NCBI GenBank assembly: GCA_021371875.1
Contig: JAJFVH010000103.1
Coordinates: forward strand, 1-43,943
Length of the DNA stretch: 43,943 nucleotides
Source of the DNA: Bacteroidales bacterium
Lineage (GTDB): Bacteria; Bacteroidota; Bacteroidia; Bacteroidales; Paludibacteraceae
Direction: 5' to 3'
Part shown: one piece after another, positions 1-23,807 of the stretch
Numbering within the stretch: position 1 is the first letter of the stretch
Layout of the letters: every line of letters begins with the position of its first letter
The notes under the pieces: generated by a model
What the model was told of the DNA's origin: nothing
Databases searched by the model: none
What the model saw: only the letters and a program-made list of their open reading frames with translations
Translations under genes and position numbers: made by a program

Positions 1-145
1 TGCAAGCCAGGAAATGTACAACGCTCAAAACGCACAAGGCGGTGGTGAAGCACAAAATGCTGACTTCGGCGGACAACAACAAAGTCAAGGGGACAGCAAC
101 AAAGAAGGTGATGTAACCGATGTGGACTTTGAAGAAGTAAAGTAA
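1..145 (+). CDS. dnaK: Molecular chaperone DnaK (Hsp70), C-terminal end only
   Basis: Partial gene running in from the left edge; the last 47 codons are visible. The translation is a flexible tail rich in Gln, Gly, Asn and Ala ending in VTDVDFEEVK and TAA, the typical C-terminus of bacterial DnaK, where the EEVK-type end is the interaction tail of this ATP-dependent folding chaperone. The nucleotide-binding and substrate-binding domains lie outside the window. The final codons (from 128) are duplicated at 23790, which marks this 3' end as the insertion site of the downstream element. The stop codon and the following terminator are therefore probably supplied by the element. Confidence 0.88.
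   Translation, partial: ASQEMYNAQNAQGGGEAQNADFGGQQQSQGDSNKEGDVTDVDFEEVK
128..145 (+). repeat. attL candidate (dnaK 3' end)
   Basis: The 14 bases TTTGAAGAAGTAAA, followed by gTAA, code for FEEVK-stop of DnaK. They match 23790-23803 exactly; over 18 bases the only difference is g against a in the third position of the Lys codon, which is synonymous. This is the left attachment core of the integrated element. Confidence 0.8.
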
Positions 146-177
146 CCACTCTCAAAAAGCAAATATCAAATATTAGT

Positions 178-212
178 AAAAAGGTGTAATTCAAAAGATT
201 ACACCTTTTTTA
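178..212 (+). terminator. Rho-independent terminator behind dnaK
   Basis: Perfect inverted repeat with arms AAAAGGTGTAAT (179-190) and its complement from 198, a 7-base loop and a run of six T. It lies inside the element boundary, so it appears to be element-borne and would now end dnaK transcription. Confidence 0.85.
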
Positions 213-239
213 TTTATAAATATTTCTTGATAATTATGC

Positions 240-268
240 TTGTATCTCGTTATTTTATTGTATATTTG
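240..268 (+). promoter_or_regulatory. Candidate Bacteroidota promoter for the HTH/integrase genes
   Basis: TTG at 240-242, an 18-base spacer and TATATTTG at 261-268, matching the TAnnTTTG -7 element of Bacteroidota sigma factor promoters. It would start RNA near 275, about 80 bases before the HTH gene. The -7 box overlaps the first two ATATTTGTA copies, so integrase or accessory protein bound there could repress its own transcription (inference). Confidence 0.5.
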
Positions 269-281
269 TACCATATTTGTA
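262..281 (+). repeat. Left-end pair of ATATTTGTA sites (arm-site candidate)
   Basis: ATATTTGTA occurs at 262-270 and 273-281. The 17-base string TTTGTACCATATTTGTA at 265-281 is repeated exactly at 23733-23749 near the other end. Short direct repeats just inside both ends of a tyrosine-recombinase element are typical arm-type integrase sites; that role is inferred here. Confidence 0.55.
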
Positions 282-301
282 TCGGGCGTTATTTAATTAG
301 A

Positions 302-324
302 ATGTGGTTCTTGTGAAACCATAT
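302..324. promoter_or_regulatory. Inverted repeat, operator candidate
   Basis: ATGTGGTT (302-309) and AACCATAT (317-324) form an 8-base inverted repeat (one G-T pair) around a 7-base centre, between the candidate promoter and the HTH gene start. It could be an operator for the HTH protein or a leader hairpin. Confidence 0.35.
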
Positions 325-355
325 TAAACTTATTTGATACTTAAAAAGTACATTT

Positions 356-931
356 ATGGGATATAGTCAGTTGAAAATTCCGAAGATCTGCGAGCATTGC
401 GGCAAGCCCTTTGAAGCAAAAACCGTAACAACTCGTTTTTGTAGCGATACTTGTAATAATGCCTCTTTACGCTTGCGCAAAAAACAGACGTTGGAAGAAG
501 AACGAAAACAGAAGGTTTTGCAGGAGAGCAAGGCGATTATTGCTGAAATTCAAACACGCCCCTACATTTCCATTGCGGAGGCAGTTGTTTTGTTTGGTAT
601 TTCAAAAAACACCATTCATAGATTGATACGAGCAGGTAAAATCCCTGCTGTCAATTTAGGCGAGCGGCTCACACGCATAAGCCGTACTCATATCGAAGCA
701 ATGTTTACCGCCGTTGCATTGCCTGAACAAAAACCACAGGAACAGCAAGCTGTAAAACTTCAATACGAACCAAGCGAATGTTACACAATCGGTGAAGTTT
801 CCGAAAAATACGGAATTTCGCTTTCTACTGTTAGTAATCTTATACGCCGCAACAGCATACCAAAACGTGAAGTTGGTAAATTCGTGTATGTACCAAAAGA
901 AATGATTGATAAACTTTTAGCAAGAAAATAA
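356..931 (+). CDS. Zinc-finger plus double helix-turn-helix (excisionase/AlpA-like) protein
   Basis: 191 residues. Residues 10-33 hold a CxxC...CxxxC arrangement (CEHCGKPF, then CSDTC) that looks like a small zinc finger. Two similar winged-HTH units of the excisionase/MerR-like HTH_17 type follow, around residues 70-115 (ISIAEAVVLFGISKNTIHRLI) and 141-188 (YTIGEVSEKYGISLSTVSNLI). The gene sits one base upstream of the integrase gene, so the two are surely co-transcribed. In related Bacteroidota elements such proteins act as recombination directionality factors or regulators; a DNA-binding role is well supported, the exact function is inferred. There is no clear Shine-Dalgarno sequence, as usual in this phylum. 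Confidence 0.8.
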   Translation: MGYSQLKIPKICEHCGKPFEAKTVTTRFCSDTCNNASLRLRKKQTLEEERKQKVLQESKAIIAEIQTRPYISIAEAVVLFGISKNTIHRLIRAGKIPAVNLGERLTRISRTHIEAMFTAVALPEQKPQEQQAVKLQYEPSECYTIGEVSEKYGISLSTVSNLIRRNSIPKREVGKFVYVPKEMIDKLLARK

Positions 932-932
932 T

Positions 933-2180
933 ATGAAAGGATTGGCAAAAACTAAGTCTACAGTCCGTTTACGCAAGCTCGAAGACCGCAAAGAATGGTA
1001 CTTGTATATAGAAAGTTACCCTGTTTTTGTTCCCGGGAAAAAACAGCCTCAACGAGTACGGGAATATCTTAACCGCACTGTTTCAACTGTGGAATGGGAT
1101 AAAAAACGCACCGCCCGCACCGAAGCGGACGGTTCAAAGACTTATAAACCTAAACGCGATGATAATGGTTTGATACTTTGCCGAAGTGAAAAAGACCGAG
1201 AAACGATTCTTTACGCCGATGGCGTTCGCAAACTTCGCCAACGCGAATATGATAATGCTGATTTGTACAGTGAAACCGAAACGGCACAAGCTCAACAAAA
1301 AGAGCGTTCCCAACAAAATTTCATTGAATATTTTGATACTGCCTCCAAAAAACGCCACACCCGCAGTTCTGAATCAATCCGTATAAACTGGAACCGCACG
1401 CTTGAATTATTGAAATTGTTTATAGGCGAATATTTGCCATTCTCAAAAATTGACAATCGTTTTGCAGAAGATTTCAGAATGTTTCTGATGACAGCCCCTT
1501 GCGGTGGTAATAAGAGTGGGACAATTTCTCATAATACTGCGGCTACCTATTTCTCAATTTTCAAAGCCGGATTGAAACAAGCATTTGTTGATGGATATTT
1601 AACGGTTGATTTGTCAGCAAAAATCAAAGGCATACAAGAGCAGGAAACCCGCCGCGAATTTCTTACAGTCGAAGAACTGAATACTCTTGCTGCCACGAGT
1701 TGTGAACACGATACAATGAAACGAGCCGCTCTGTTTTCTGCACTTACAGGTTTACGGCATTGCGATATTCAAAAAATGCGTTGGAAAGAAGTACAGATTG
1801 AGGGAGAACAAGCTCGCCTTAATTTCACACAGCAAAAAACGAAAGGTGTTGAATATATGCCTATTTCACAACAAGCATTAGAATTATGTGGCGAACCTCG
1901 CAAGCCGGAGCAACTCGTTTTTGAAGATTTACCAGACCCCTCTTGGATATCCCGACCACTCAAAAAGTGGCTCGATAAAGCTGGAATAACAAAGAAAATC
2001 ACATTTCATTGCTTCCGGCATACATTTGCAACCCTTCAATTAAGCAATGGTACAGACATTTATACCGTAAGCAAAATGTTAGGGCATACCAATGTAAAAA
2101 CCACTCAGATTTATGCAAAAGTGGTCGATGAGAAGAAAGAAAAGGCAGCAAATACGATAAAATTGAATATTAGCAAATAG
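933..2180 (+). CDS. Tyrosine recombinase / site-specific integrase
   Basis: 415 residues, full length for the family. An Arm-DNA-binding-like N-terminus (about 10-120) is followed by a SAM-like core-binding domain (about 130-235) and the catalytic domain (about 240-400). The catalytic residues are visible: Arg275 in TGLRHCDI, His359 and Arg362 in HCFRHTFA, His385 in MLGHTNVKTT and the nucleophile Tyr394 in QIYAKV. It should catalyse integration and excision through the dnaK-end repeats at 128 and 23790. The gene begins one base after the HTH gene stops. Its position immediately inside the attachment repeat is the classic layout for a self-coded integrase. Confidence 0.95.
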   Translation: MKGLAKTKSTVRLRKLEDRKEWYLYIESYPVFVPGKKQPQRVREYLNRTVSTVEWDKKRTARTEADGSKTYKPKRDDNGLILCRSEKDRETILYADGVRKLRQREYDNADLYSETETAQAQQKERSQQNFIEYFDTASKKRHTRSSESIRINWNRTLELLKLFIGEYLPFSKIDNRFAEDFRMFLMTAPCGGNKSGTISHNTAATYFSIFKAGLKQAFVDGYLTVDLSAKIKGIQEQETRREFLTVEELNTLAATSCEHDTMKRAALFSALTGLRHCDIQKMRWKEVQIEGEQARLNFTQQKTKGVEYMPISQQALELCGEPRKPEQLVFEDLPDPSWISRPLKKWLDKAGITKKITFHCFRHTFATLQLSNGTDIYTVSKMLGHTNVKTTQIYAKVVDEKKEKAANTIKLNISK

Positions 2181-2358: not shown

Positions 2359-2366
2359 TAACTTTG
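2359..2366 (+). promoter_or_regulatory. Candidate -7 box of the cobalamin-riboswitch transcript
   Basis: TAACTTTG fits the TAnnTTTG consensus exactly. It would start RNA near 2373, right where the riboswitch begins. No convincing -33 TTTG is seen. Confidence 0.5.
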
Positions 2367-2370
2367 TCGT

Positions 2371-2550
2371 TGAATTTTGGTGATACTATTTCCTTATCGG
2401 GAATAGCATTGAAAAGGGAATCAGGTGTAAATCCTGAACAGACCCGCTGCTGTAAGCTCTTTATAACGTATTGAACAACACTTTTGCCACTGTCAAACAG
2501 AGACGGGAAGGCGTTCAAATACGGGAGTAAGTCAGAAGACCTGCCAAGAT
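2371..2550 (+). promoter_or_regulatory. Cobalamin (AdoCbl-type) riboswitch
   Basis: Recognised by the conserved family blocks: a GGTGATA-like start (2379), CCGCTGCTGTAA around 2444-2455, GCCACTG at 2486-2492, GGGAAGGCG at 2505-2513, and the B12 box AGTCAGAAGACCTGCC at 2530-2545. The aptamer binds adenosylcobalamin or a related corrinoid and lowers downstream expression when B12 is plentiful. It lies before btuB, as in other Bacteroidota B12 loci. Two small hairpins follow (GGCTT/AAGCC near 2562-2581 and GCAG/CTGC near 2598-2612), then the expression platform candidate at 2643. Confidence 0.93.
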
Positions 2551-2642
2551 AAATAGTTTAAGGCTTTCGGGGAATGAAGCCGGCGACGAACTGAATGGCA
2601 GCAATTTCCTGCACGAAGTTTATCACCGTTTTTTATTGTTTG

Positions 2643-2674
2643 AAAGCTGTTTAATAACCATTAAACGGCTTTTT
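2643..2674 (+). terminator. Expression-platform hairpin with T run before btuB
   Basis: Arms AAAGCTGTTTAA (2643-2654) and TTAAACGGCTTT (2661-2672) pair over 12 bases with one G-T, with a 6-base loop and a T run ending at 2674, directly against the ATG at 2675. This may work as an intrinsic terminator or may block ribosome access when B12 is bound. The alternative TTG start at 2636 would lie 5' of this hairpin. Confidence 0.6.
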
Positions 2675-4711
2675 ATGTTTCTGCACAGGGCATTTTACAC
2701 AACTATTCTATTTTCGTTTTCTGTCTTTTGTTTTGCTCAAAACAAATTAGACAGTACACTAATGCTGAAAGAGGTATTGGTTGTTGCTACCCATTACCGA
2801 GAAGTAATCCCCTCCCAAAAACTTTCCGGCGAAACGTTGAAAAGCCTCAATAGTTTTTCAGTAGCCGATGCAATTCGCTATTTTTCAGGTGTACAAATAA
2901 AGGATTATGGTGGGATAGGTGGACTGAAAACAGTGGATATGCGTAGTATGGGCACCAACCACATGGGTATTTTCTACGACGGTATTCAGCTTGGTAATGC
3001 ACAGAACGGACAAATCGACCTTGGTAAATTCTCACTCGACAATATCGAAGAAATATCGCTTTACAACGGACAGAAAAGCGAGATATTTCAATCGGCCAAA
3101 GACTTTAGTGCTTCTGGCACGGTATATCTGCGCTCCCGAAAGCCACGTTTTACGGATACACAACAAGACCATTTAAAAACCTCACTCAAAGGGGGTTCAT
3201 TTGATTTACTCAATCCCTCTGTGCTTTGGGAACATAAGATATCCAACAAACTCTCCACTTCATTCAATGCCGAATACATTTACTCTTCCGGTAGATATAA
3301 GTTCAGATACAAAAGAGTGTTGCAGGATGGGAAAACTGCCTACGACACAACTGCCATTCGCCAAAATGGAGATATCCATGCTCTAAGAGCCGAAGCGGGT
3401 ATTTACGGTATAATCGACAAAGGATTCTGGAATACAAAACTCTATTTCTATGATTCGGAAAGAGGTATTCCCGGAGCTATTGTAAACAATGTGTGGAAAC
3501 GTTCGCAACGCCAGTGGGATCGCAATATTTTTCTACAAAGTTCGTGGCAAAAATCCATTACCAAGAACTACGATTTGATGGTAAATGTAAAGTATGCCAA
3601 TGACTTTATGCGCTATTTGAATCCCGATACTACTTTATTACACATTGACAACTCTTTTTGGCAACAGGAGGTTTACGCTTCTGTGGCTAACAAATATAGC
3701 ATTCTAAAAAACTGGGATATTGATCTTTCCGGTGATTTTCAGTGGAATACGCTCAATTCTGATATGGCTGGATTTATACGTCCCACACGTCTCACTACAT
3801 TGATAGCAGCCGCTTCTGCCATAAGTTGGACTCACTTTAAAATACAGGGCAGTCTTCTTGCCACATTAGTCAATGAAAGAGTTGACAGAGGAAATACGAC
3901 CGCAACTGATACGGTGAGTTCCGCACCGAATAAGCGGGAACTTTCGCCGGCTGTTTTCCTTTCATACAAACCATTTATCAATATTCCCCTAAGCTTTCGG
4001 GCATTTTACAAGCATATTTTTCGTATGCCCACCTTCAACGATTTGTATTACACCGACATTGGCAATATTTCCCTAAAACCGGAATACACCCACCAATACA
4101 ATCTGGGATTCTATTATTCAAAAGAATACAAAGGTTGGATAAAAAGCTGGCAGGCACAAGCAGACGCCTATTATAATCAGGTTACCGATAAAATTGTTGC
4201 GGTACCTAAAGGAAATGGCATGTACAGATGGATGATGATGAATCTGGGAACGGTTGAAATAAAAGGAATTGACGTTTCAACAAGTTCATTGATAGCACTT
4301 TCAAAAAATCTGTTTGCGAATGTAAAACTGTCGTACACCTACCAGAAAGCACAAGATTTTACCAAACGAAAAAGCGAAGAATTACAAAAAATCACCTATG
4401 GCGGACAGATTCCGTACATTCCCTGGCACAATGGTTCGGCTATCATTGGTTTAATGTACAAAGATTGGCGACTGAATTACAGCTTTATCTATGTGGGGGA
4501 ACGCTATCATAATTCGGCCAATATTCCGGAAAATTACGAACAGCCTTGGTACACCCACGATATGTCGGTAGCAAAAACATTTTCTTATAAAAAATGGAAT
4601 GGTAAAATCTCATTGGAAATCAACAATCTGCTAAGTCAGGATTATGAAGTGGTACTTAATTATCCAATGCCAAAGCGTAATTACAAACTTGCAGTATCAT
4701 TTGAAATATAA
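2675..4711 (+). CDS. btuB: TonB-dependent outer-membrane cobalamin receptor
   Basis: 678 residues from the ATG at 2675. An in-frame TTG 13 codons upstream is disfavoured because it lies before the regulatory hairpin and adds residues before the signal peptide. Signal peptide about 1-22 ending FCFAQ; TonB-box-like segment KEVLVVATH shortly after it; plug domain about 40-155 (SVADAIRYFSGVQIKDYGG, VDMRSMGTNHMGIFYDGI); then a beta barrel ending in EINNLLSQDYEVVLNYPMP and the C-terminal aromatic-rich strand. It lacks the carboxypeptidase-like N-terminal extension common in SusC proteins, as is normal for BtuB. The B12 riboswitch upstream and btuG downstream (17 bases away) make corrinoid import across the outer membrane the best call. 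Confidence 0.92.
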   Translation: MFLHRAFYTTILFSFSVFCFAQNKLDSTLMLKEVLVVATHYREVIPSQKLSGETLKSLNSFSVADAIRYFSGVQIKDYGGIGGLKTVDMRSMGTNHMGIFYDGIQLGNAQNGQIDLGKFSLDNIEEISLYNGQKSEIFQSAKDFSASGTVYLRSRKPRFTDTQQDHLKTSLKGGSFDLLNPSVLWEHKISNKLSTSFNAEYIYSSGRYKFRYKRVLQDGKTAYDTTAIRQNGDIHALRAEAGIYGIIDKGFWNTKLYFYDSERGIPGAIVNNVWKRSQRQWDRNIFLQSSWQKSITKNYDLMVNVKYANDFMRYLNPDTTLLHIDNSFWQQEVYASVANKYSILKNWDIDLSGDFQWNTLNSDMAGFIRPTRLTTLIAAASAISWTHFKIQGSLLATLVNERVDRGNTTATDTVSSAPNKRELSPAVFLSYKPFINIPLSFRAFYKHIFRMPTFNDLYYTDIGNISLKPEYTHQYNLGFYYSKEYKGWIKSWQAQADAYYNQVTDKIVAVPKGNGMYRWMMMNLGTVEIKGIDVSTSSLIALSKNLFANVKLSYTYQKAQDFTKRKSEELQKITYGGQIPYIPWHNGSAIIGLMYKDWRLNYSFIYVGERYHNSANIPENYEQPWYTHDMSVAKTFSYKKWNGKISLEINNLLSQDYEVVLNYPMPKRNYKLAVSFEI

Positions 4712-4728: not shown

Positions 4729-5904
4729 ATGAAACGGATAAACAAACACACATATATTGGTACTGGACTATCTCTACTATTTATTCTCTTAATGAATTCG
4801 TGCAGGGAAGATATTGTGATAGATACCCCAGTTTCAACGCAGGTTGATTCCACTCAGACAAAGACCGACTATTCCGGATTTTATCTGCTCAATGAAGGAA
4901 ATATGGGTAGTAACAAATCCACGTTGGACTATTATAATTATAGTACGGGAATTTACACAAAGAATATTTATGCTTCGGTCAATCCGACGGTTACAAAAGA
5001 ACTGGGCGATGTAGGAAATGACTTGCAAATATATGGTAGCAAGCTATACGCCGTTATAAATTGCTCAAATAAGGTGGAAGTAATGGATGCTAAAACGGCA
5101 AAGCGTATCGGCCAAATCGATATTCCCAATTGTCGATACATACGTTTTTCCGGAGGATATGCCTATATAACTTCGTATGCAGGACCAGTGGAAATCAATC
5201 CGAACTATACACAAAAAGGCTATGTAGCCAAGGTAGATACTGCCACATTGCAAATTGTGAATACTTGCATTGTCGGCTACCAACCTGATGAACTGGAAAT
5301 TATAGGAGGTAAAATCTATGTCGCCAATTCTGGAGGATACATGGGAGCAAGCACCACCAGCGGCTATGAACGCACCGTTTCGGTCATTGACCTGAATACA
5401 TTCACAGAAGAAAAACGGATTGATGTGGACTACAACCTGCACCGTATCAGGGCTGACAAACGGGGCGATTTATGGGTTACTTCGCGTGGCGATTACAAAA
5501 CGCTTCCTTCTCGGCTCTATTTTCTCGACCGTGCCAAGCAACAAGTAACCGACACGGTAAAAATCCCCGTCAGCGAGTTCTGTATTGTGGGCGATTCGCT
5601 CTACGCATATAGCGTTTCGTGGAGTTACATTACCTACACCAATGAAATTTCGTATGCCATTGTCAACACCAAAACACACAAAGTAGTAAGCAACAATTTC
5701 ATTACCGACGGGACAGATAAACAGATTGAAATACCTTATGGCATTATGGTTAATCCGAATACAAAAGACATTTATGTAGCTGATGCCGGCGATTATGTCA
5801 GTCCAGGATTGCTTTACTGCTTCGACAAGAACGGCAAAAAAAAATGGAGTGTACAAACGGGCGATATCCCGGCACATTTTGCGTTGCTACCAAAGAAAGA
5901 ATAA
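4729..5904 (+). CDS. btuG: Surface cobalamin-binding lipoprotein BtuG (beta propeller)
   Basis: 391 residues. Lipoprotein signal with lipobox Cys25 (LLMNSC), so the mature protein is membrane-anchored. From about residue 50 it shows the YncE/DUF5074-like seven-bladed propeller pattern: GFYLLNEGNMGSNKSTLDYY at the start, then repeats such as KLYAVINCSNKVEVMDAKT, GYAYITSYAGPV, KIYVANSGGY and DIYVADAGDYVSPG. In Bacteroides, BtuG sits on the cell surface, binds B12 with extremely high affinity and passes it to BtuB. The location directly after a riboswitch-controlled btuB supports the same job here. Spacing to btuB is 17 bases and to the next gene 43 bases, with no terminator between, so these are one operon. 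Confidence 0.87.
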   Translation: MKRINKHTYIGTGLSLLFILLMNSCREDIVIDTPVSTQVDSTQTKTDYSGFYLLNEGNMGSNKSTLDYYNYSTGIYTKNIYASVNPTVTKELGDVGNDLQIYGSKLYAVINCSNKVEVMDAKTAKRIGQIDIPNCRYIRFSGGYAYITSYAGPVEINPNYTQKGYVAKVDTATLQIVNTCIVGYQPDELEIIGGKIYVANSGGYMGASTTSGYERTVSVIDLNTFTEEKRIDVDYNLHRIRADKRGDLWVTSRGDYKTLPSRLYFLDRAKQQVTDTVKIPVSEFCIVGDSLYAYSVSWSYITYTNEISYAIVNTKTHKVVSNNFITDGTDKQIEIPYGIMVNPNTKDIYVADAGDYVSPGLLYCFDKNGKKKWSVQTGDIPAHFALLPKKE

Positions 5905-5947
5905 ATCGCAGTTTTTTTAAATATGTCTAACAAAAAAACAATTAGTC

Positions 5948-7111
5948 ATGAAACAGAAAATTTTCATTTTCGGAATGGCTTTAGCCTGTTTAGCAGGTGG
6001 AGTCTTGACTGGATGCACGAAGAAAAGTAATGCGTCCAATGCGCATGCCGTTGGCGATACGCTAACGTTGAATCTACAGGACACCGGTTACACGAACTGG
6101 ACAGACACGATTGCTTCCACTGGAACAGCCAGCGGTGGTTATTGGGCTTACACTTACAATGAAGATTCTACCCGTATCCGTTTCGGGCAGTTTGTCCTTT
6201 CTCGCGAAGCTGGGTTTGGCGGAACTTTCTGGGCAGGATTTACCACCGGATCAAACGGCGATGCAGCCCGTTACAGCATTCCTTGTCCAACTCCACCTTG
6301 CGACAGTACTTACAGCTTGCCGTGGGTTACTCACCAATGGGGTGTGATGTCGGGGGGTGCACTCAATTATCCGGTAACGGCAAATCCTCCTGCAGTTACG
6401 AAAGGATTGCCCTATTTGGTAAGCTATTGGAACTATTATTCCGACGAAACGCTGGGTAAACCTTCATTGAGAGTTACATTGGCTGATTCTGCCGTATTTG
6501 CTCCACAGGAAATTTATATTTGCAACCACCCTTGGCCCTATTGGGGAAATATCTATGGCGATGGTTTCGCTCGTCCGCTCAATCAACCGGGTGATTATTT
6601 CGTGTTGGAAATTCACGGGTTCAATACTGATGGAGATGAGGTAGGTTCAAAAGTGGATACATTAGCCGTGTATGATGCTTCTGCTCCCAACAGCGTAAGG
6701 CAATCAAATATTTGGCATAAAGTGATTTTGTCTGAAGACTTGGGTGCAGGGATAAAGATACTTACATTCACGATGAAGACTACCGATTCAGGCGAATATG
6801 GACCCAACACAGCCGTATATTTCAATATGGATAGGCTTAAGGTAGTGTTGAGCAATGATACACGAAAATCTGCCGCTCGTAAACCCAAAGTGGCGGCAAA
6901 AGCTCCTGCCAAGCCCAAAGCCATAGTAGTAACCGACTATTTTCCACTGAAATCCTATACCGGAGGCGCTGTTACGGTGTACAACGAACAGGGAAAAACC
7001 GCTTTGAAAACTTCTGTAAAAGCAGGAGAAAAACCGAATCTGTCGAAACTGCCTGCCGGTAAGTATCATTTGCTGCACGGACACAGATTAATTCCGTTTA
7101 CTAAAAAATAA
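5948..7111 (+). CDS. DUF4465 (BtuH-like) lipoprotein with sorting-domain-like C-terminus
   Basis: 387 residues. Lipoprotein signal with Cys23 (LTGC). Residues about 40-300 are a DUF4465 domain; shared motifs with the gene at 9811 include PWPYWGNIYGDGFARPLNQPGD, HQWGVMSGG and YGPNTAVYFNMDRL. DUF4465-type proteins occur in Bacteroidota B12 loci, and some B12-locus surface proteins have been described as cobalamin-binding BtuH; I assign that role by domain and context, with moderate certainty. Odd: after an Ala/Lys/Pro-rich linker (about 305-325) the last 60 residues resemble a T9SS sorting domain (VTVYNEQGKTALKT, LPAGKYHLLHG). A lipobox and a sorting-like tail in one protein is unusual. A strong hairpin follows at 7124. 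Confidence 0.75.
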   Translation: MKQKIFIFGMALACLAGGVLTGCTKKSNASNAHAVGDTLTLNLQDTGYTNWTDTIASTGTASGGYWAYTYNEDSTRIRFGQFVLSREAGFGGTFWAGFTTGSNGDAARYSIPCPTPPCDSTYSLPWVTHQWGVMSGGALNYPVTANPPAVTKGLPYLVSYWNYYSDETLGKPSLRVTLADSAVFAPQEIYICNHPWPYWGNIYGDGFARPLNQPGDYFVLEIHGFNTDGDEVGSKVDTLAVYDASAPNSVRQSNIWHKVILSEDLGAGIKILTFTMKTTDSGEYGPNTAVYFNMDRLKVVLSNDTRKSAARKPKVAAKAPAKPKAIVVTDYFPLKSYTGGAVTVYNEQGKTALKTSVKAGEKPNLSKLPAGKYHLLHGHRLIPFTKK

Positions 7112-7123
7112 TTATTAACTCAC

Positions 7124-7160
7124 CACCTAACAGGTTTTCGAAACCTGTTAGGTGTATTTT
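7124..7160 (+). terminator. Perfect 14-bp hairpin after the DUF4465 lipoprotein gene
   Basis: CACCTAACAGGTTT (7124-7137), loop TCG, and the exact complement at 7141-7154, followed by TATTTT. It may be a partial terminator or an RNA-stabilising structure separating btuB-btuG-btuH-like from the downstream secreted-protein genes. The sequence also looks like a dispersed palindromic repeat. Confidence 0.7.
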
Positions 7161-7175
7161 CAAACAACTAACAAT

Positions 7176-16628: not shown

Positions 16629-16665
16629 CCACGATTTCAATTGAAGTCGTGGTTTTCTTTTTATT
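16629..16665 (+). terminator. Terminator before the HTH pair
   Basis: CCACGATTTC (16629-16638), loop AATT and GAAGTCGTGG (16643-16652), followed by TTTTCTTTTTATT. It ends transcription from the small gene upstream. Confidence 0.75.
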
Positions 16666-16707
16666 GGCACAAAAGAAAATCCAATCTGCCAATAAATAAA
16701 CAATGAA

Positions 16708-17106: not shown

Positions 17107-17450
17107 GCAAGCCCAAACATATTAGCGAGATTTTGCGCGAAATGGCGGAGAATCCACAAAATGGATTTGAAAAAGTATTAGCCCAACTACCTTGTATGCA
17201 AACGCTTTTACAGAACTCCAGGAGAGGGATAGAGGCTGGAGAAACTTCCCTGTCTGATTGGATCGACAATCAGGATGTGATGCAAATTTTGCATATCAGC
17301 CCCCGCACGTTGCAAACTTTGCGTTCTAATGGCATATTGCCATTTTCACGCATTGGCAATAAGTTATTTTATCGTCGTCAGGACATTATAAAAATCCTAT
17401 CCGACAATTATACAATGCGTAAAATTCATGATTATGGGAGCGATAAATAA
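17103..17450 (+). CDS. Second helix-turn-helix (HTH_17 type) protein
   Basis: 115 residues. HTH in residues about 58-103: WIDNQDVMQILHISPRTLQTLRSNG then the wing ILPFSRIGNKLFYRRQDIIKIL. This is the typical second protein of the paired HTH genes placed before primase genes on Bacteroidota mobile elements. It overlaps the upstream HTH gene by 4 bases and the downstream BT4734-like gene by 23 bases. The segment GIEAGETS is coded by a GGGATAGAGG-type stretch that may be a relic of the palindromic repeats seen downstream (speculative). Confidence 0.75.
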   Translation: MSKPKHISEILREMAENPQNGFEKVLAQLPCMQTLLQNSRRGIEAGETSLSDWIDNQDVMQILHISPRTLQTLRSNGILPFSRIGNKLFYRRQDIIKILSDNYTMRKIHDYGSDK

Positions 17451-18552
17451 TTGCGTAGAGCTGTCCAATTGGTCGGCTCAAATTCTTGGCAAAACTCATT
17501 ATGGCATAAAAATATATGCACATATCTTGAGGTTGTATTATCCAAACGAAACAGTCCTCTCCCTTTCGGGGAGGACTTGTTTACCTGCTAAGAATCCATT
17601 CAATGCCGATAAATCGACATTGAATATTTTCATTGAAAAGGAAAATGTTTTGGGTAATGCTTCGGATAAAGAGTTTGTACGACATTTGGATAGCGAAATT
17701 TCGTGCCAACGAGTGCAGAGTTTAAGCTCGCTTGTAACTATGCCGAGTGCAGCCGAAATTGCGTGTCATTACGATACGCAAAACGCTATCCCTGCTGGTG
17801 ATGCGTTCGACTTTGCCGAACTACATTACAAACAGTCTGGCGATGAGTTGCTGCAAACGCTGAATAAAGAAATGAACCTGCATATTGGCGAGAAATTCAA
17901 TTTTTACGCCAATAGCAAAAAATCAAATAATATTTCTGATAGCTCAACCCAAAGTCCCCCTGTGGGGGATTTAGGGGGCTGTTTCTCTTTTTTCAAAGCC
18001 CCCATTCAGAATACCATTCCTCATAAATCAATTTTCTTGCTCGATGCCTACAATTACATTATCGGCGATTATGCAAAACAACGAACTAAAAAATTGCGAT
18101 CAATTCTTTCTCCCCTCCCTTGTGGGGAGGGGTCGGGGGAGAGGCTTAAACGAGCAAGGCGGTTTAAAGCCTCAACATTTGACTACTGTACTTTTTCAGG
18201 GATATTCCAAACTCGCAACGACAAAGCACTCATAAGTCATTCCGGCTTACTGTGTGTTGATTTTGACCATTTGCAAAGCGTTGATCTGCTTCGCAAGCAA
18301 CTTTTGCAGGATGAATACTTTGAAACGCAATTGCTTTTCGTCAGTCCTTCTGGCGATGGGCTAAAATGGATAATCTCTATTGACTCCAAACAAATAACAC
18401 ATAGCAACTATTTTGCTGCGGTTGCAAATTACATTCAACAAACCTACGGTGTTGAAGTCGATAAATCAGGACGGGACATATCCCGCGCCTGTTTTTTATC
18501 ACACGATCCACAGGCATACATTAATCCACTTTACAAACCCTCAACTAAATAA
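17428..18552 (+). CDS. BT4734/VirE-N-like replication protein carrying palindromic insertions
   Basis: 374 residues. The C-terminal third (about 255-370: FSGIFQTRNDKALISHSGLL, CVDFDHLQSVDLLRKQLLQD, FVSPSGDGLKWIISID, VDKSGRDISRACFLSHDP) matches the BT4734-like N-terminal (VirE-N) domain, a primase-polymerase-like fold found beside DUF3987 proteins. The first 250 residues are more variable. Three GC-rich palindromes lie inside the frame and are translated: 17553-17577 (VLSLSGRTC), 17951-18003 (SPPVGDLGG, KAPIQ) and 18109-18144 (SPLPCGEGSGE). The frame stays open across all three. The ATG at 17428 overlaps the upstream HTH gene, and the next gene starts 2 bases after the stop. A likely role is replication of the element together with the DUF3987 protein. 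Confidence 0.72.
   Translation: MIMGAINNCVELSNWSAQILGKTHYGIKIYAHILRLYYPNETVLSLSGRTCLPAKNPFNADKSTLNIFIEKENVLGNASDKEFVRHLDSEISCQRVQSLSSLVTMPSAAEIACHYDTQNAIPAGDAFDFAELHYKQSGDELLQTLNKEMNLHIGEKFNFYANSKKSNNISDSSTQSPPVGDLGGCFSFFKAPIQNTIPHKSIFLLDAYNYIIGDYAKQRTKKLRSILSPLPCGEGSGERLKRARRFKASTFDYCTFSGIFQTRNDKALISHSGLLCVDFDHLQSVDLLRKQLLQDEYFETQLLFVSPSGDGLKWIISIDSKQITHSNYFAAVANYIQQTYGVEVDKSGRDISRACFLSHDPQAYINPLYKPSTK
17553..17577. repeat. Palindrome inside the BT4734-like gene (1)
   Basis: AGTCCTCTCC (17553-17562) and GGGGAGGACT (17568-17577) pair with one G-T around a 5-base loop. Translated in frame. Confidence 0.7.
17951..18003. repeat. Palindromic repeat inside the BT4734-like gene (2)
   Basis: AAAGTCCCCC then TGT then GGGGGATTTAGGGGGCT, with a further AGCCCCC at 17997-18003 able to pair with AGGGGGCT. 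The pattern (CCCCC, short loop, GGGGG, TTAG, GGGG) recurs at 37341-37369 in the chromosome. Confidence 0.7.
18109..18144. repeat. Palindromic repeat inside the BT4734-like gene (3)
   Basis: TCTCCCCTCCC, short loop TTGT, GGGGAGGGG, then TCGGGGGAGAGG. This is a GC-rich palindromic element of a type common between genes in many bacteria, here inside a reading frame. Confidence 0.75.
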
Positions 18553-18554
18553 TT

Positions 18555-20387
18555 ATGAGCAAGAAGACATTCAACCCTTCAGATTGGGTTCCAGATAAAC
18601 CAATACAGAATTCTCAGTACCAAGAGTCCTTGCAGTCTTTAGGTACAAATAACGACATTGAAGAAATTACAAGGAGAATTGAATCTTCCGCTCTCGATAT
18701 TGCCCCCAACTATGCCGACTGGCGAGATTTGGGCTTTGCCCTCGCTGACGCTTTGGGGGAAAGCGGTCGTAATTATTACCACCGCCTAAGTCGTTTTTAT
18801 CCGTCTTATTCGCAAAACGAAACCGACAAACAATACTCCGCCTGCCTTGCTTCGCACGGCCACGGCGTAACAATCAAAACACTTTACCATTTGGCAAAGT
18901 CCGCAGGCATAGATGTTTCTGTAAAAAATCACACAAATTATACTCCGGACGATATTGCTAAATTGCCAAAATTATCAAATTGCCAAAATGGCAAAATGGA
19001 TATTTCGGCAAAATCAAATCAAATAGAGAATCTTGATTTTCTCCCTTCGGAGGGATTAGAGGAAGTTTTACCCACCTTTCCCGAAGATATATATTCTCTG
19101 TTGCCCGGCTATCTCCGACAGATTACACAATATGCAAATTCTCGTGAAGATGCAGACCTGCTTTTATTAGGTTCCTTGGTAGTCATTTCTGCAAGTCTTC
19201 CAAATGTTTATGGCTATTACGGTGGCGTTACAGTTTTCCCAAATTTGTTTTTGTTTGTCTCCGCACAAGCTTCTGCAGGCAAAGGACGGTTGTCTTTATG
19301 TCGTCGATTAGTAGAGCCAATTCACCGACAGTTACGGGAGTTGAACAGATCAGAACTTGAAGAATATAAGCGACAGCAAGCAGAATATTCAGCCAATAAA
19401 AAAAATCTCGATACAGAGCAACCGAAAGAACCGCCATTGCGTGTGCTTTTCATTCCGGCAAACAGCAGCGCGACTGCCGTTTTTCAAATACTAAATGACA
19501 ATCAAGGCGTTGGATTAATGTTTGAAACAGAAGGGGATACGCTTGCACAAACGTTTAAATCCGAACACGGCAATTACTCGGACGCTTTCCGAAAAGCTTT
19601 CCACCACGAGAAAATCTCGTATTTACGACGTAAAGACAGGGAATATGTTACGCTTGATATACCCAAACTCTCGGTCTTGCTGTCTGGAACACCCCGGCAG
19701 ATACAAAGTTTAATTCCCGATGCTGAAAACGGCTTGTTCAGCCGTTTCATATTCTATTATATGAATATCCGCTTGCAATGGATTAATGTATTCGCCTGTA
19801 ATGAGAGTGAATCTTTAGACCAGCGTTTCAATCGTTTCGGTGATGTATTTTTTGGTTTTTACAAAACACTCAAACAATTTGACAATCTCCGTTTTTCATT
19901 CTCCACAAGTCAGCAAACAGCATTCAATCAATATTTTGAACAAGTACAACAGCAGTATTGGGAATTACTGGGAAATGATTATATTGGTACAATTCGGCGT
20001 TTAGGGTTAATTGCATTCCGCATTTCAATGATCCTAACCGTTTTGCGAATTATGGATGATGGCAATATCAGCAACACTATCGTATCCAACGATACCGATT
20101 TTTACATTGCAATGGAAATGGTCAAAGTACTTATACAACATTCCGCTTTTGTATTTCGTCAGTTACCACAAGCCGGCACAACACCGAATCAAAATCTCAA
20201 CCCTAAAATGGCATTATTCCAAGCCTTGCCACCCCAATTTGACAGAACTAAATACATTGAAGTAGCCAAAACACTACAAATTCCAGAAAGCACCGCTGAT
20301 AAGCAAGTTGCCCGCTTTTGTAATGCGGGATTATTGCTAAGGCAGGCACACGGTAGTTATTTGAAAAAAGAAACTAACTGTTTTTAA
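18555..20387 (+). CDS. PriCT-2 / DUF3987 primase-helicase-like replication protein
   Basis: 610 residues. Residues about 35-118 match the primase C-terminal PriCT-2 domain (NYADWRDLGFALADALGESG, HGVTIKTLYHLAKSAGI). Residues about 175-560 are a DUF3987 domain with a P-loop-like motif ASAGKGR (239-245), an acidic segment FETEGDTLAQTF, and VLLSGTPRQIQSLIPDAENGLFSRF. These proteins are thought to act as ATPases/helicases in replication of Bacteroidota mobile elements and are usually paired with the BT4734-like protein, as here (2-base spacing). A small palindrome CTCCCTTCGGAGGG (19041-19054) followed by ATTAGAGG lies in the linker between domains. The gene ends just before the GC-rich non-coding region. 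Confidence 0.82.
   Translation: MSKKTFNPSDWVPDKPIQNSQYQESLQSLGTNNDIEEITRRIESSALDIAPNYADWRDLGFALADALGESGRNYYHRLSRFYPSYSQNETDKQYSACLASHGHGVTIKTLYHLAKSAGIDVSVKNHTNYTPDDIAKLPKLSNCQNGKMDISAKSNQIENLDFLPSEGLEEVLPTFPEDIYSLLPGYLRQITQYANSREDADLLLLGSLVVISASLPNVYGYYGGVTVFPNLFLFVSAQASAGKGRLSLCRRLVEPIHRQLRELNRSELEEYKRQQAEYSANKKNLDTEQPKEPPLRVLFIPANSSATAVFQILNDNQGVGLMFETEGDTLAQTFKSEHGNYSDAFRKAFHHEKISYLRRKDREYVTLDIPKLSVLLSGTPRQIQSLIPDAENGLFSRFIFYYMNIRLQWINVFACNESESLDQRFNRFGDVFFGFYKTLKQFDNLRFSFSTSQQTAFNQYFEQVQQQYWELLGNDYIGTIRRLGLIAFRISMILTVLRIMDDGNISNTIVSNDTDFYIAMEMVKVLIQHSAFVFRQLPQAGTTPNQNLNPKMALFQALPPQFDRTKYIEVAKTLQIPESTADKQVARFCNAGLLLRQAHGSYLKKETNCF
19041..19062. repeat. Palindrome relic inside the DUF3987 gene
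   Basis: CTCCC TTCG GAGGG followed by ATTAGAGG resembles a shortened copy of the repeats in the neighbouring gene. It codes for LPSEGLEE in the linker between the PriCT-2 and DUF3987 domains. Confidence 0.45.
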
Positions 20388-20566: not shown

Positions 20567-21130
20567 ACACTCACTCCTGCGCTCCGGTAGGTGCTCCTCG
20601 TGGCGTGTCAGCTTGTTTTGCTACACACGCTCGTTCAATCCTCATTCGTGGCTGCACCTGCCCCCAAAACCCCAATAAGGATTAGTTTGATTTATAATTG
20701 GGGGCAGCCGCCACTTATTGTTGTGCTCGCCTGCGGGTCGCTCGGGCTAATCGGGCTGTCACAGTTTTTGTAGTCGCTTTCAATGTGGCTTTTGCCGTGT
20801 TCATTTTGTCATTCCGTTACTCTCCATTCCTTCATTCACACCGCACAGCCACCCCACACAAGAGCTGTCCTCCATTCGTCCGTTCCGTTACACTTTACTT
20901 CCTCATTTAGTCCAGCCCTTGCCTTTTCCAACGCACGCTCCAAACAAAAACTCCGCCAGCCCTGCGGCAAAGCCGTAGGCAGTCGAAGCCCTCACTGCGT
21001 TCCGGGCTACCCTCGTCTGCCACCCTCGCTCCACTCGCAGACGGCTCGCGCCTCTCCACTACGCAGGCAAAAAAACTACTCCGCTATCGCTCCGCCTGTT
21101 TTTTACCGCTCCGTTCCGGCTCAAGGCTGC

Positions 21131-21165
21131 TTTACCTGTTTTCGGTTTAATCCTGCTTCGCCCAC
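21131..21165 (-). repeat. Right arm of long inverted repeat
   Basis: Complement of 20397-20430 with two short gaps. The blocks TTTACCTGTT, CGGTTTAA and TCCTGC are conserved in order. Confidence 0.6.
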
Positions 21166-21332
21166 ACACAGCCCCCGACCACCCACCCCTGAAGAAATAC
21201 AGTTGATGGAATTATTGTATTTGCGTTCCACGCAGGGTTTTACTGTAATCAAAGAGCGACAAAAAAATGTTCACAAAGATAACAGCAAGAAAATAAGTCT
21301 GTAAAGGTCAAGCCCTACGGGTTTTCGCCAAA

Positions 21333-21398
21333 ATCTCCACACCTCCGCTACGCTTCGGGTAGTATTTCGCCGAAAAACCTTGACAGCCTCAACGCTCC
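21333..21398 (+). repeat. Direct repeat copy 2 in the GC-rich region
   Basis: Second copy of the repeat at 20501-20566. It is flanked by complementary GGTTTTCGCC and CGCCGAAAAACC-like segments that could fold into a stem. Confidence 0.65.
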
Positions 21399-21524
21399 GT
21401 TTCTCTTCGCTTTTTCTTGCAGTAAGAGGGTGTTTACATTTTCTTTTCCCTTTTCGTGTTTTTTCGCGAGGAAAAAGGCAGATTAAAGCAACCTAAAGCA
21501 TAAGAAACCAATATGATATTCAGA

Positions 21525-21546
21525 TAATTACCTGTAATTACATTTG
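21525..21546 (+). promoter_or_regulatory. Promoter and palindromic operator candidate of the lysis-like cassette
   Basis: TACATTTG at 21539-21546 fits TAnnTTTG exactly and would start RNA near 21553. A perfect palindrome, TAATTAC-CT-GTAATTA, covers 21525-21540 and overlaps the first two bases of the -7 box. This arrangement would let a repressor switch the downstream cassette off (inference). Confidence 0.5.
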
Positions 21547-21631
21547 CATTCGGATAAGGTTTGAGCCGTATTTGCTTATTACCAAGTCCAAGTTAAAATC
21601 GAATTATTAACCCCTAAAAAAAAGTAGTAAA

Positions 21632-22270
21632 ATGGGAACAATTAAACAAGGTATCTTAGGTGGCTTTTCCGGCAAGGTCGGGACGGTCATAGGTGGGAGT
21701 TGGAAAGGCATTTCGTATATGCGTAGCCAAGCCCAGAGTGTAAAGAACCCCCGCACGGACGGACAGTTGAGCCAACGAAGCAAATTTGCGCTTGCGTTGG
21801 ACTTTCTCAAACCGTTGACCGACATTGTGCGTACCGGTTTCAAACTCTACACCAACAAACAGACGGCTTTCAATGCCGCAATGTCTTACACGCTGGCAAA
21901 CGCCATTTCGGGCGATTATCCTGATTATGAACTGAATTTCGCTTCCGCCCTCATTTCGCGAGGTTCGTTAACTTCGGCAACTAATGGAGTGGCAACTTCC
22001 GCAAACGGAAGTGTAACTGTTACTTGGGGAGACAACACCGGCGTAGGCACTGCCAAAGCAACCGACAAAGCCCTGATTGCCGTGCTGAATGCCGACAAAG
22101 GCGAAGCGGTAACCGTATCCGCAGGGGAAGCCCGCTCCACCGTAACTCAAACGGTTTCCGTCCCTGCCGACTGGGTGGGTGAAGAAGTGCAGGTGTATCT
22201 CGGTTTCATTTCTGCAGATGCCAAAGAAGTGGCAAACAGTGTGTATCTGGGTGCTGTGACTGTTGCCTAA
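21632..22270 (+). CDS. DUF6266 family protein, first gene of the lysis-like cassette
   Basis: 212 residues. The N-terminus MGTIKQGILGGFSGKVGTVIGG and the following SWKGISYMRSQAQSVKNPRT are diagnostic of the DUF6266 family, found in Bacteroidota and, as I recall, often near holin and peptidoglycan-hydrolase genes. Residues 1-115 are the conserved part; 120-212 look like an Ig-like beta domain (VTVTWGDNTGVGTAKATDKALIAVLN). There is no signal peptide, only a Gly-rich start. Function is unknown; a phage-structure-like or released effector protein is possible. The gene has its own upstream promoter candidate and is followed by a terminator hairpin at 22301. Confidence 0.8.
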   Translation: MGTIKQGILGGFSGKVGTVIGGSWKGISYMRSQAQSVKNPRTDGQLSQRSKFALALDFLKPLTDIVRTGFKLYTNKQTAFNAAMSYTLANAISGDYPDYELNFASALISRGSLTSATNGVATSANGSVTVTWGDNTGVGTAKATDKALIAVLNADKGEAVTVSAGEARSTVTQTVSVPADWVGEEVQVYLGFISADAKEVANSVYLGAVTVA

Positions 22271-22300: not shown

Positions 22301-22331
22301 AAATCCCGCCCGAAAGAGCGGGATTTTTTTA
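22301..22331 (+). terminator. Terminator after DUF6266 gene
   Basis: AAATCCCGC (22301-22309) pairs with GCGGGATTT (22318-22326), followed by a T run. It would make DUF6266 mRNA more abundant than the downstream lysis genes if termination is partial. Confidence 0.85.
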
Positions 22332-22367
22332 ATAATCAAATCAAAACTAATTAAAATTCAAACACAT

Positions 22368-22805
22368 ATGATACGATTAATAATGAATAAAGATTGGGGC
22401 AATCTGAACGCCCTGCTTACCGTTTTGGCTGTCCTTTACACCTGTGTTTTTCTGTCCGTACTCATTGACCTGTATTTCGGTGTAAGACGTGCAAAACGCC
22501 TGAAAATCGTCCGTACCAGCTTCGGCTACCGCCGTACCATTACCAAATTGACAAGCTATTTCGGCTTAATGATTATGCTTTCCATTGCCGATATTGTGGC
22601 AAGCGTGGTTTTCGATATGCCCTACTTTACCGTAATTGGAGCTATCGGGATTGTCCTGGTCGAAGCGAAATCCGTTTTTGAAAACCTCAGGCAGGAAACC
22701 AAAAACGTGGACGAAATTCAAAAGGTCCTGCTCAAACTCTTTGAAAACAAAGAGGAGATACAAACCCTCATATCATTTCTAAACTCAAAAAAGCAGGAGG
22801 ATTAA
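22368..22805 (+). CDS. Phage-holin-like membrane protein
   Basis: 145 residues, possibly starting at the in-frame ATG five codons later (MNKDW). Three hydrophobic helices are predicted (about 13-39, 61-82 and 84-104), with a charged loop YFGVRRAKRLKIVRTSFGYRRT between the first two and a cytoplasmic charged tail. Size, topology and position directly before a lysozyme-like gene match Bacteroidota phage holin family proteins, which form inner-membrane lesions. The stop codon is 2 bases before the next start, so the genes are coupled. Confidence 0.75.
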   Translation: MIRLIMNKDWGNLNALLTVLAVLYTCVFLSVLIDLYFGVRRAKRLKIVRTSFGYRRTITKLTSYFGLMIMLSIADIVASVVFDMPYFTVIGAIGIVLVEAKSVFENLRQETKNVDEIQKVLLKLFENKEEIQTLISFLNSKKQED

Positions 22806-22807
22806 AT

Positions 22808-23218
22808 ATGAAATCGAGAGGACTTAGGAACAACAATCCGTTGAATATCCGGAAAAATACCGAACAGTTCCAGGGAGAAATTAAAGGCCGGGACAAAAGT
22901 TTCAAAACATTCTCGTCACTGCCTTACGGCTATCGTGCGGGCTTTGTAATCCTTGGGACGTACCTTTCCCAAGGATTAAACACCATTGAAAAGATCATTG
23001 CCCACTGGGCACCGTCAACCGAGAACGATACGGAAAGTTATATCGCCCATGTTGAAAGGTGGTCGGGTGTCCCTCGAAACAAGGAACTAACTGTCCGGAA
23101 TGGCTCTGATTACATTCTAATTGTGGCGGCCATGAGTTTTGTCGAAAATGGGCAAAATGCCGATATTTCAGCAGTACAGGCAGGTTTTAAACTACAAACT
23201 AAAATCAAAATCCAATGA
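22808..23218 (+). CDS. Lysozyme-like protein related to phage structural protein P5
   Basis: 136 residues. The N-terminus RGLRNNNPLNIRKN is the hallmark of the 'structural protein P5'/muramidase-like family seen in phages, followed by FKTFSSLPYGYRAGFVILGTYLSQG and a conserved WAPSTENDTESYIAHV segment. It probably cuts peptidoglycan. There is no signal peptide, so export would depend on the holin-like protein encoded just upstream. The last bases overlap the start of the spanin-like gene (ATGA). Exact bond specificity cannot be read from sequence. Confidence 0.78.
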   Translation: MKSRGLRNNNPLNIRKNTEQFQGEIKGRDKSFKTFSSLPYGYRAGFVILGTYLSQGLNTIEKIIAHWAPSTENDTESYIAHVERWSGVPRNKELTVRNGSDYILIVAAMSFVENGQNADISAVQAGFKLQTKIKIQ

Positions 23219-23607
23219 AAAAGATACTTTTCCTCGCAGCAATAGCAACTTTGTTGTATTCCTGCAAATCGGTCAAATACATTCCGGTAGAAACTACCAA
23301 AATAGAGTACCGGGATAATTTCGTCAGAGACTCAATTTTCCGTTATGATTCTGTTTTTGTCAAGGAGAAAGGCGATACCTTGATTCTGGAAAAATTCAGG
23401 TACCTGTACAAAAATCGCATTGTCAAAGATTCAATTTTTATCAATGACACAATCCGGGTTCCCTATCCGGTAGAAGTGGTTAAACAAGTAAAAGCCCTAT
23501 TGACCGGTTGGCAAAATTTCCAAGTATGGTGCGGTCGGATTTGGCTTGCAGTTGTTTTACTTGTCGGACTATATTTCGTACTTAAATTGAAGAAGATACT
23601 ACCTTAA
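23215..23607 (+). CDS. Unimolecular spanin-like lipoprotein
   Basis: 130 residues. Lipoprotein signal at the N-terminus with lipobox Cys17 (TLLYSC) and a hydrophobic helix at the C-terminus (about 109-124, IWLAVVLLVGLYFVLK) ending in LKKILP. Between them is a beta-rich, charged periplasmic segment with repeated KDSIF-type units. A protein tethered to the outer membrane by lipid and to the inner membrane by a C-terminal helix is the defining architecture of a u-spanin, which fuses the membranes in the last step of phage lysis of Gram-negative cells. Position after holin-like and lysozyme-like genes supports this. Homology to known spanins is not asserted. Confidence 0.65.
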   Translation: MKKILFLAAIATLLYSCKSVKYIPVETTKIEYRDNFVRDSIFRYDSVFVKEKGDTLILEKFRYLYKNRIVKDSIFINDTIRVPYPVEVVKQVKALLTGWQNFQVWCGRIWLAVVLLVGLYFVLKLKKILP

Positions 23608-23631
23608 AAGCCCCCGAAAGCGGTTTTTTTG
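23604..23631 (+). terminator. Terminator candidate after the lysis-like cassette
   Basis: AAAAGCC and GGTTTTT can pair (one G-T) around CCCGAAAGC, followed by a T run. The stem is short. Confidence 0.5.
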
Positions 23632-23686
23632 TATCTGATTGTTAGTTTCCAATCAAACTTATATTTGCTTATAAAAAACATTTTAT

Positions 23687-23749
23687 ATATTTGTAAATCA
23701 GATTTATATGTTTTATACTTACTTCTATTTATTTTGTACCATATTTGTA
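23687..23749 (+). repeat. Right-end pair of ATATTTGTA sites (arm-site candidate)
   Basis: ATATTTGTA at 23687-23695 and 23741-23749. The second copy is part of the 17-base string TTTGTACCATATTTGTA (23733-23749) that also lies at 265-281. The sites are 40-100 bases inside the right attachment repeat. Confidence 0.55.
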
Positions 23750-23789
23750 CATAAATTCCATAAATTACTGAATATCAATAGTGAAGAAT

Positions 23790-23807
23790 TTTGAAGAAGT
23801 AAAATAA
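23790..23807 (+). repeat. attR candidate (displaced dnaK 3' end)
   Basis: TTTGAAGAAGTAAA followed by aTAA; in frame it reads FEEVK-stop. Exact 14-base match to 128-141. Beyond it the chromosome resumes with what should be the original dnaK downstream sequence. Confidence 0.8.

Follow-up and report, generated by a model that had tools for sequence, protein, structure and literature searches.

The stretch analyzed here, referred to as the window, is a whole contig of 43,943 bases (G000:C129; JAJFVH010000103.1) from a metagenome-assembled genome (MAG) of a Bacteroidales bacterium. It opens within dnaK, the gene for the chaperone DnaK, so that just 127 bases precede the first of two short core repeats. 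Positions 128-23807, delimited by these repeats, very probably constitute an integrated mobile element of about 23.7 kb that its own tyrosine recombinase placed at the dnaK 3' end. The features that define its two ends, together with the predicted recombination genes, are the following:

1..145, + strand: dnaK 3' end (attL), whose last base(s) and stop codon come from the element side; the C-terminus of a congener's DnaK matches 2-142 (tblastn, 77% over 48 aa)
128..141, + strand: left core copy TTTGAAGAAGTAAA (attL); a left/right comparison of 14 elements puts strand exchange between core positions 7 and 11
178..210, + strand: terminator-like hairpin behind dnaK, borne by the element (14-pair stem and T tail; fold z = -4.7 for 142-215)
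265..281, + strand: left arm-type repeat TTTGTACCATATTTGTA, 122 bases from the dnaK stop
356..931, + strand: helix-turn-helix (HTH) protein, candidate excisionase/regulator (Pfam HTH_17; phrog_66, excisionase and transcriptional regulator; cluster present in 14/14 closed elements)
933..2180, + strand: tyrosine recombinase, or integrase (Pfam Phage_integrase, Phage_int_SAM_5 and Arm-DNA-bind_5; phrog_1, integrase)
23733..23749, + strand: right arm-type repeat TTTGTACCATATTTGTA, 57 bases ahead of the right core
23790..23803, + strand: right core copy (attR), which with 23804-23807 retains the displaced old dnaK end, FEEVK-stop
23854..23882, + strand: probable displaced dnaK terminator (fold z = -4.6 for 23804-23900)

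The 14-mer TTTGAAGAAGTAAA is found at 128-141 and 23790-23803, with a start-to-start spacing of 23,662 bases. These are its sole exact copies on both strands of the window, and the only further match with up to two mismatches lies at position 19935. The left copy is in frame and terminates the DnaK reading frame, the stop codon being 143-145, and both core copies (TTTGAAGAAGTAAAGTAA and TTTGAAGAAGTAAAATAA) encode FEEVK followed by a stop. A first-pass annotation of the same DNA had already proposed a 23.7-kb element at the dnaK 3' end, with a tyrosine recombinase gene just inside the left copy and the FEEVK-stop ending in both; all of this was upheld, the cores being exact and unique, the left one closing the DnaK frame, and the recombinase being the gene at 933-2180 with its three Pfam domains. 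An integrase gene inside and direct repeats at both ends, the hallmarks of a tyrosine-recombinase integrative element, are thus both present. The integrase residues R275, H359, R362 and H385 were invariant in the 38 aligned sequences, Y394 was conserved in 37 and K304 in 32.

Since a short repeat in a single contig could be due to chance, 36 sequences carrying a related integrase were searched beyond the left core for the 18-base pattern TTYGARGARGTNAARTRR (35 of them lie at a dnaK end and one, G365, at a secondary site; two derive from genome G086). The pattern matched 13 times on the expected strand, at most once per sequence, and never on the opposite strand, in 961,658 bases. A chance repeat was rejected on the basis of this 13:0 strand bias of the second core and of the exact, unique cores in the window. 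With the 13 full matches and G092, which matched at 17/18 positions, 14 closed elements were available, ranging from 14.7 to 36.8 kb. When their left and right cores were compared, disagreements were confined to positions 3, 6, 12, 13, 15, 17 and 18 and spared 7-11 throughout. Strand exchange is thereby placed around the last Glu and Val codons. In 12 of the 14 closed elements, an arm-type repeat of the TTTGTACC type lies some 121 bases past the stop on the left and 46-59 bases ahead of the right core, and TTTGTACC was present 120-135 bases past the dnaK stop in 46 of the 53 occupied loci described below. The core and the arm repeats would be the expected parts of a tyrosine-recombinase attP, all of them as predicted sites.

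The first-pass annotation had also anticipated other elements at the same site in relatives, and these turned out to be frequent. In a survey with one genome per species, the best 80 of 131 integrase relatives were analyzed and split at 55% identity. Among the 65 that were at least 55% identical, 53 lay at dnaK, seven had less than 1 kb of DNA upstream and five lay elsewhere, so that 53 of 58 informative loci start just after dnaK. None of the 15 below 55% was at dnaK (14 elsewhere, one too short). The integrase started 600-1210 bases past the dnaK stop in the 53 loci, mostly at about 770-870. When genomes were drawn evenly across the order, seven of 295 (the window's own included) matched the integrase at E <=1e-100, and in all seven it followed right after the dnaK end. 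Within the genus, a match at 1e-40 was obtained in 16 of 48 genomes, several of which correspond to more distant integrases. Eleven genomes were occupied at dnaK (G000, G001, G002, G007, G011, G014, G017, G019, G022, G024 and G025), and a further 16, each with 1.7 kb or more of sequence past dnaK, were unoccupied; occupancy was defined as an integrase or left HTH gene beside dnaK, and G023 (a weak partial HTH match) was left out, as were genomes with short downstream DNA or no dnaK end. The best relative of the window's integrase among these best 80 was 91% identical over the whole protein and came from a MAG titled Prevotellaceae, whereas those of the congeners G002 and G014 were 64% identical. 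As judged from these comparisons, the same integrase family occupies the dnaK 3' end across Bacteroidales, in many bacteria of the gut and of the environment, with differing cargo, including near-identical integrases in distant hosts.

The relationship between the integrase and its host gene was evaluated at 37 loci where both proteins are nearly whole (L044 and L053 were dropped due to internal stops). DnaK identity was below 85% in 11 of the 43 pairs whose integrases are at least 95% identical, integrase identity was below 75% in 14 of the 37 pairs with DnaK identity of at least 90%, and the nearest neighbors by DnaK and by integrase were concordant for only four of the 37 loci. Read from these identities, the histories of DnaK and of the integrase disagree. 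A particularly sharp case was provided by Bacteroides finegoldii TSDC17.2-1.1 and P. massiliensis TSDC17.2-1.1, whose common donor human fecal sample is F60T2 according to the key-resources table of PMC7939548. Their dnaK genes are 76-90% identical over the last 1.75 kb (in 250-base bins), the last difference being the third base of the last Glu codon; from there, 6,360 bases are identical, so that no more than 125 bases of the B. finegoldii record lie beyond them. The sequences of this pair are from records filed as plasmids, one of which clearly contains chromosomal genes. A step in identity located right at the core, with distinct dnaK genes on its left, would argue against mere contamination. 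No right end was located for the shared stretch within the 31 kb inspected.

These data bear on a different explanation, in which a resident integrase gene has been passed down along with dnaK, the second core being no more than a chance or degenerate repeat. The very uniform distance from stop to integrase, about 770-870 bases in most loci, would fit such a gene, and so would the correlation between integrase and DnaK identity, albeit a weak one (Spearman 0.39). However, the distribution is patchy, both in the order (7/295 genomes) and in the genus (11 occupied versus 16 not, with at least 1.7 kb downstream), the two histories are discordant, the second core occurs 13 times versus 0 on the opposite strand, and identity jumps to 100% in the last dnaK codons of two genera from one donor. 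Vertical inheritance with dnaK was therefore rejected, on account of the patchiness, the discordant histories and the identity step at the core, and a resident gene is regarded as extremely improbable.

Unoccupied sites were the next source of evidence for an integrated element. No relative was seen that has both repeats and no recombinase, a combination that the first-pass annotation had named as contrary to its proposal, and the 47 sequences of the unoccupied class were all without a second core. They came from 39 genomes, in 33 of which 1 kb or more, and in 14 of which 5 kb or more, of sequence follows dnaK; among these genomes, G024 (three bases downstream) is in fact occupied and L013 possibly holds a more distant element. 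The empty sites that had been expected in relatives were recovered for the family by synteny, by comparing G069 and G061 with L015, L014, L022 and L007. A MORN-repeat gene follows dnaK in these four unoccupied genomes: in L014 and L015 a subtilase gene comes directly after it (judged from matches to G069), and in L007 and L022 a MORN-type gene lies within 1.2 kb of dnaK. In G069, the MORN and subtilase genes are situated 1.5-3.9 kb past the right core of a 22.3-kb element; the distance from the right core to the MORN gene is 2.35 kb in G061. When the genus of G066 (five genomes) was searched at the nucleotide level for an empty site, only the G066 locus itself and dispersed repeats were returned. 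The annotation's further expectation, that the genes at 24-26 kb of the window would neighbor dnaK in relatives, was not borne out. The first right-flank gene, 24006-24863, has 70% identical homologs in two of the 47 other congeners, G005 and G009, and a 36% homolog in a third; both G005 and G009 carry it on a contig other than that of dnaK. This negative is a weak one, as the order of genes behind dnaK varies within the genus. The aldo-keto reductase and AraC-type genes in the flank of the window were also compared with L118, but at 28-30% identity they were judged to be paralogs.

Several observations weigh against an element inserted at dnaK by a site-specific integrase. The source genome is a MAG, in which misassembly is possible; the first right-flank gene lies away from dnaK in both congeners with the 70% homologs, and neither a precise empty site nor an excised circle or attP was seen for the window's own element. 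A second full core was not detected in G063, G072, G076, G078, G090 and G357 despite more than 39 kb downstream (the remaining sequences without one had less than 26 kb each), and G062 and G086 are exceptions to the arm-repeat arrangement among the 14 closed elements. To these must be added the Spearman correlation mentioned above and the five of 58 informative loci away from dnaK, two of which, L074 and L099, show no recognizable core. In the other three, the core-like sequence matched at 18/18 (L070), 17/18 (L088) and 16/18 (L037) positions, and the presence of such sequences elsewhere suggests that the integrase reads DNA and not dnaK as such. The integrase thus seems to tolerate secondary sites. 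The right end of L202 likewise has a core with mismatches, outside dnaK, and a second integrase copy in G017 (L205) is without a good core.

The consequences for dnaK can be outlined from the same comparisons. A terminator-like fold with z <= -3 (50 single-base shuffles each) follows dnaK in 52 of the 53 loci. The last DnaK residue is His or Arg, not Lys, in six of the 53 occupied loci (L075-L079 and L083), and in G086 the displaced right copy still codes for Lys. In the occupied genomes ending in His or Arg, the predicted element thus rewrites the last residue of DnaK. Since the element supplies the last bases of dnaK, the stop codon and a terminator-like hairpin, dnaK is rebuilt, and it is apparently kept intact by the insertion. 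A mechanism may be proposed on this basis. The recombinase would join the attP core, around GARGARGT in the codons for the final Glu-Glu-Val, to the same codons at the dnaK 3' end. Comparison among loci shows that the incoming element gives dnaK its last bases, stop and terminator-like hairpin, and that the original dnaK end, probably with its terminator, is displaced by 23.7 kb. The HTH protein encoded at 356-931 might act as the excisionase, and the excised circle might be replicated by the primase/helicase pair described below. Relatives with a relaxase and MobC would travel by borrowed conjugation, while for the subtype found in the window, with a lysis cassette and no relaxase found, mobilization in trans and packaging by a helper phage are candidate routes.

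The remaining predicted features of the element, between the integrase and the right arm repeat, are as follows (ORF, open reading frame):

2361..2562, + strand: cobalamin riboswitch (RF00174, 107.1 bits)
2636..4711, + strand: TonB-dependent receptor, BtuB-like (Pfam; best NCBIfam match TIGR01779 TonB-B12, 90 bits, far under its cut-off of 600)
4729..12840, + strand: five probable exported-protein genes (DUF5074; DUF4465 twice; Fn3/chitobiase-C type; sorting tails)
12906..13490, + strand: DUF6580 protein (Pfam)
13506..16056, + strand: NrdD (13506-15596) and NrdG (15574-16056), matching TIGR02827 and TIGR02826 above cut-off
16149..17450, + strand: 141-aa ORF plus two small genes of the HTH_17 family; 16708-17106 belongs to a cluster with members in 13/14 closed elements (own included)
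17428..20387, + strand: replication module, BT4734-like (17428-18552) and PriCT_2/DUF3987 (18555-20387), read as primase/helicase with PHROGs primase/helicase matches
20783..22270, + strand: 173-aa ORF (20783-21304) and DUF6266 protein (21632-22270), from the Pfam scan
22368..23607, + strand: lysis cassette, with holin (22368-22805; Pfam Phage_holin_4_1), endolysin (22808-23218; phrog_873, endolysin) and a unimolecular spanin-like protein (23215-23607)

The genes at 4729-12840 are possibly surface B12-capture genes, a suggestion drawn from the riboswitch and the neighboring genes. The proteins of the B12 locus and NrdDG (2361-16056) did not cluster with any protein of the other 13 closed elements. 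The spanin-like call was made by eye, from a lipobox and a C-terminal hydrophobic segment, with no family match.

How this element would move is less evident. Relaxase, conjugation and virion genes were sought in its 21 main ORFs with Pfam and in ten ORFs with PHROGs, small overlapping ORFs being left out. The Pfam scan of the 21 main ORFs gave no match to a relaxase or MobC, as would mark an integrative and mobilizable element (IME), and no type IV secretion genes, as would mark an integrative and conjugative element. The content of the 14 closed elements was established by cluster membership, with one member per cluster scanned, and the genes of G061 and G092 were scanned for relaxases in part. 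On this basis, a relaxase (PF03432) was assigned to five elements, DUF5712, which we take to be a mobilization family, to four others, and NikA/MobC to six, G077 having NikA/MobC alone; nine of the 14 thus have a relaxase or DUF5712. The element of the window matched neither family. The BT4734/DUF3987 module is shared by the closed elements of the window, G061 and G092; both genes also occur in G002 and G211, and the second gene in G127. Likewise, the elements of the window, G061 and G092 have genes for an endolysin and a spanin-like protein at their right ends, immediately before attR. Between the window and G092, the holin, endolysin and spanin-like proteins are 97, 93 and 83% identical, compared with 62% for the integrases, which suggests that the right-end lysis module is independent of the integrase; it seems to move independently of it. 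As for other cargo, G061 encodes Mza-type defense proteins and G092 the defense proteins SspC and PbeA.

The lysis genes raise the question of whether the element is instead a prophage or a prophage remnant. A right end with holin, endolysin and spanin-like genes and the lack of a relaxase match in the 21 main ORFs would agree with this. However, no capsid, portal, terminase or tail gene was recognized in the 21 main ORFs by Pfam or in the ten examined with PHROGs, and in PHROGs the endolysin is matched as well by lysozyme-like segments of larger virion proteins. Furthermore, the DUF6266 protein has no match in 50,697 phage records or in viral contigs, the helicase has none in viral contigs, and the integrase matches a single viral contig, at 41%. 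A phage origin of this kind is therefore considered unlikely. Somewhat better placed, while still doubtful, is the notion of a phage satellite with its own integrase, replication and lysis genes that is packaged in helper-phage particles. It would account for the presence of lysis genes and for their conservation with G092 despite the divergence of the integrases. Against it, no packaging or capsid-remodeling gene was recognized, no helper phage was identified, no helper search having been made, and a relaxase or DUF5712 is present in nine of the 14 closed members of the same integrase family. The mobile element with its own integrase remains the preferred reading, and a broader model can be offered tentatively: the dnaK 3' end might be a dedicated, order-wide docking site in Bacteroidales, active in the human gut, and the branch represented in the window might have swapped conjugal mobilization genes for a complete lysis cassette, becoming a hybrid of mobilizable elements and phage satellites.

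Parts of this arrangement have counterparts in known systems. Phage satellites and small prophages combine an integrase with a lysis cassette, as the window's element does, although the latter is without recognized packaging, capsid or tail genes. The mobile B12-transport elements of Bacteroides carry B12-uptake genes as cargo, as does the window's element with its probable B12-uptake locus. Among Bacteroidota IMEs, NBU1, NBU2, MTnPi4 and Tn4555 have a tyrosine integrase like that of the dnaK-site elements, and several dnaK-site relatives have, like them, a relaxase and MobC, which were not found in the element of the window. NBU1, NBU2 and MTnPi4 also resemble the dnaK site in using the 3' end of a conserved gene, but differ in the target, which is a tRNA 3' end in the table of the review PMC5704250. 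The same table gives Vibrio yicC as an example of elements at the 3' ends of protein genes. There, too, the protein gene is left unchanged or nearly so; the gene and the phylum are different, and the dnaK elements also bring a terminator-like hairpin. The main text of that review does not mention dnaK, its table listing tRNA and other gene ends. The first-pass annotation had remarked that dnaK is seldom described as an integration site; in agreement with this, no report was found in searches of an open-access library, where the dnaK passages encountered dealt with other subjects, although subscription papers were mostly outside the search and such a report may be in print elsewhere. The kind of element is thus known, whereas the dnaK site, its breadth and the lysis-bearing branch appear to be new within the searchable literature. 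The region just behind dnaK could serve as a landmark for finding mobile elements of Bacteroidales and their cargo, including B12 uptake and Mza and Ssp/Pbe-type phage defense. As insertion appears to preserve an important gene, the site could also serve in the engineering of gut bacteria. In addition, the case offers a chaperone gene whose end would be rewritten by mobile DNA, and documents one stretch common to two genera from one human donor.

Some additional observations concern particular loci. Tandem elements were considered for G065 and G071 and rejected, given that the bases beyond the right core have no HTH or integrase similarity and lack TTTGTACC, with a 100-base ungapped identity to the left end of 63 and 40, respectively. 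In G065, these bases resemble the region downstream of dnaK in the unoccupied L009 (27/31, by eye), and look like the native dnaK downstream region. The left end of the G065 element (L149) also resembles the native sequence downstream of dnaK in L009, from the same host group, as though the element had picked up the dnaK 3' region of a host. In G074 (L164/L165), a second, inverted integrase module, too distant for the 1e-100 threshold, lies within the dnaK-site element. The more distant element suspected at L013 (G053) may be marked by a weak HTH match just after dnaK (36% over 44 aa). Two records with dnaK, NZ_OY725932.1 and OY725981.1, are filed as circular plasmids; the former represents part of a chromosome and includes recA, clpB and eno.

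Within the element, the NrdDG pair is of the oxygen-sensitive type and rides as cargo beside the probable B12-uptake locus under riboswitch control. The DUF6266 protein had no match in the PDB, in the 50,697 phage records or in a viral-contig pattern scan, and its single-sequence AlphaFold model was poor (mean predicted local distance difference test score of 56). DUF6266 genes are common in members of the genus, G002 and G082 among them, being found in 21 of 60 relatives at 1e-20 compared with none of 14 control genomes. Among 12 loci fetched for DUF6266, lysis genes were nearby only in L202, on contig C178 of G082. Finally, two 58-base repeats, 78% identical, are located at 20499-20556 and 21330-21387, in the gaps flanking the 173-aa ORF.

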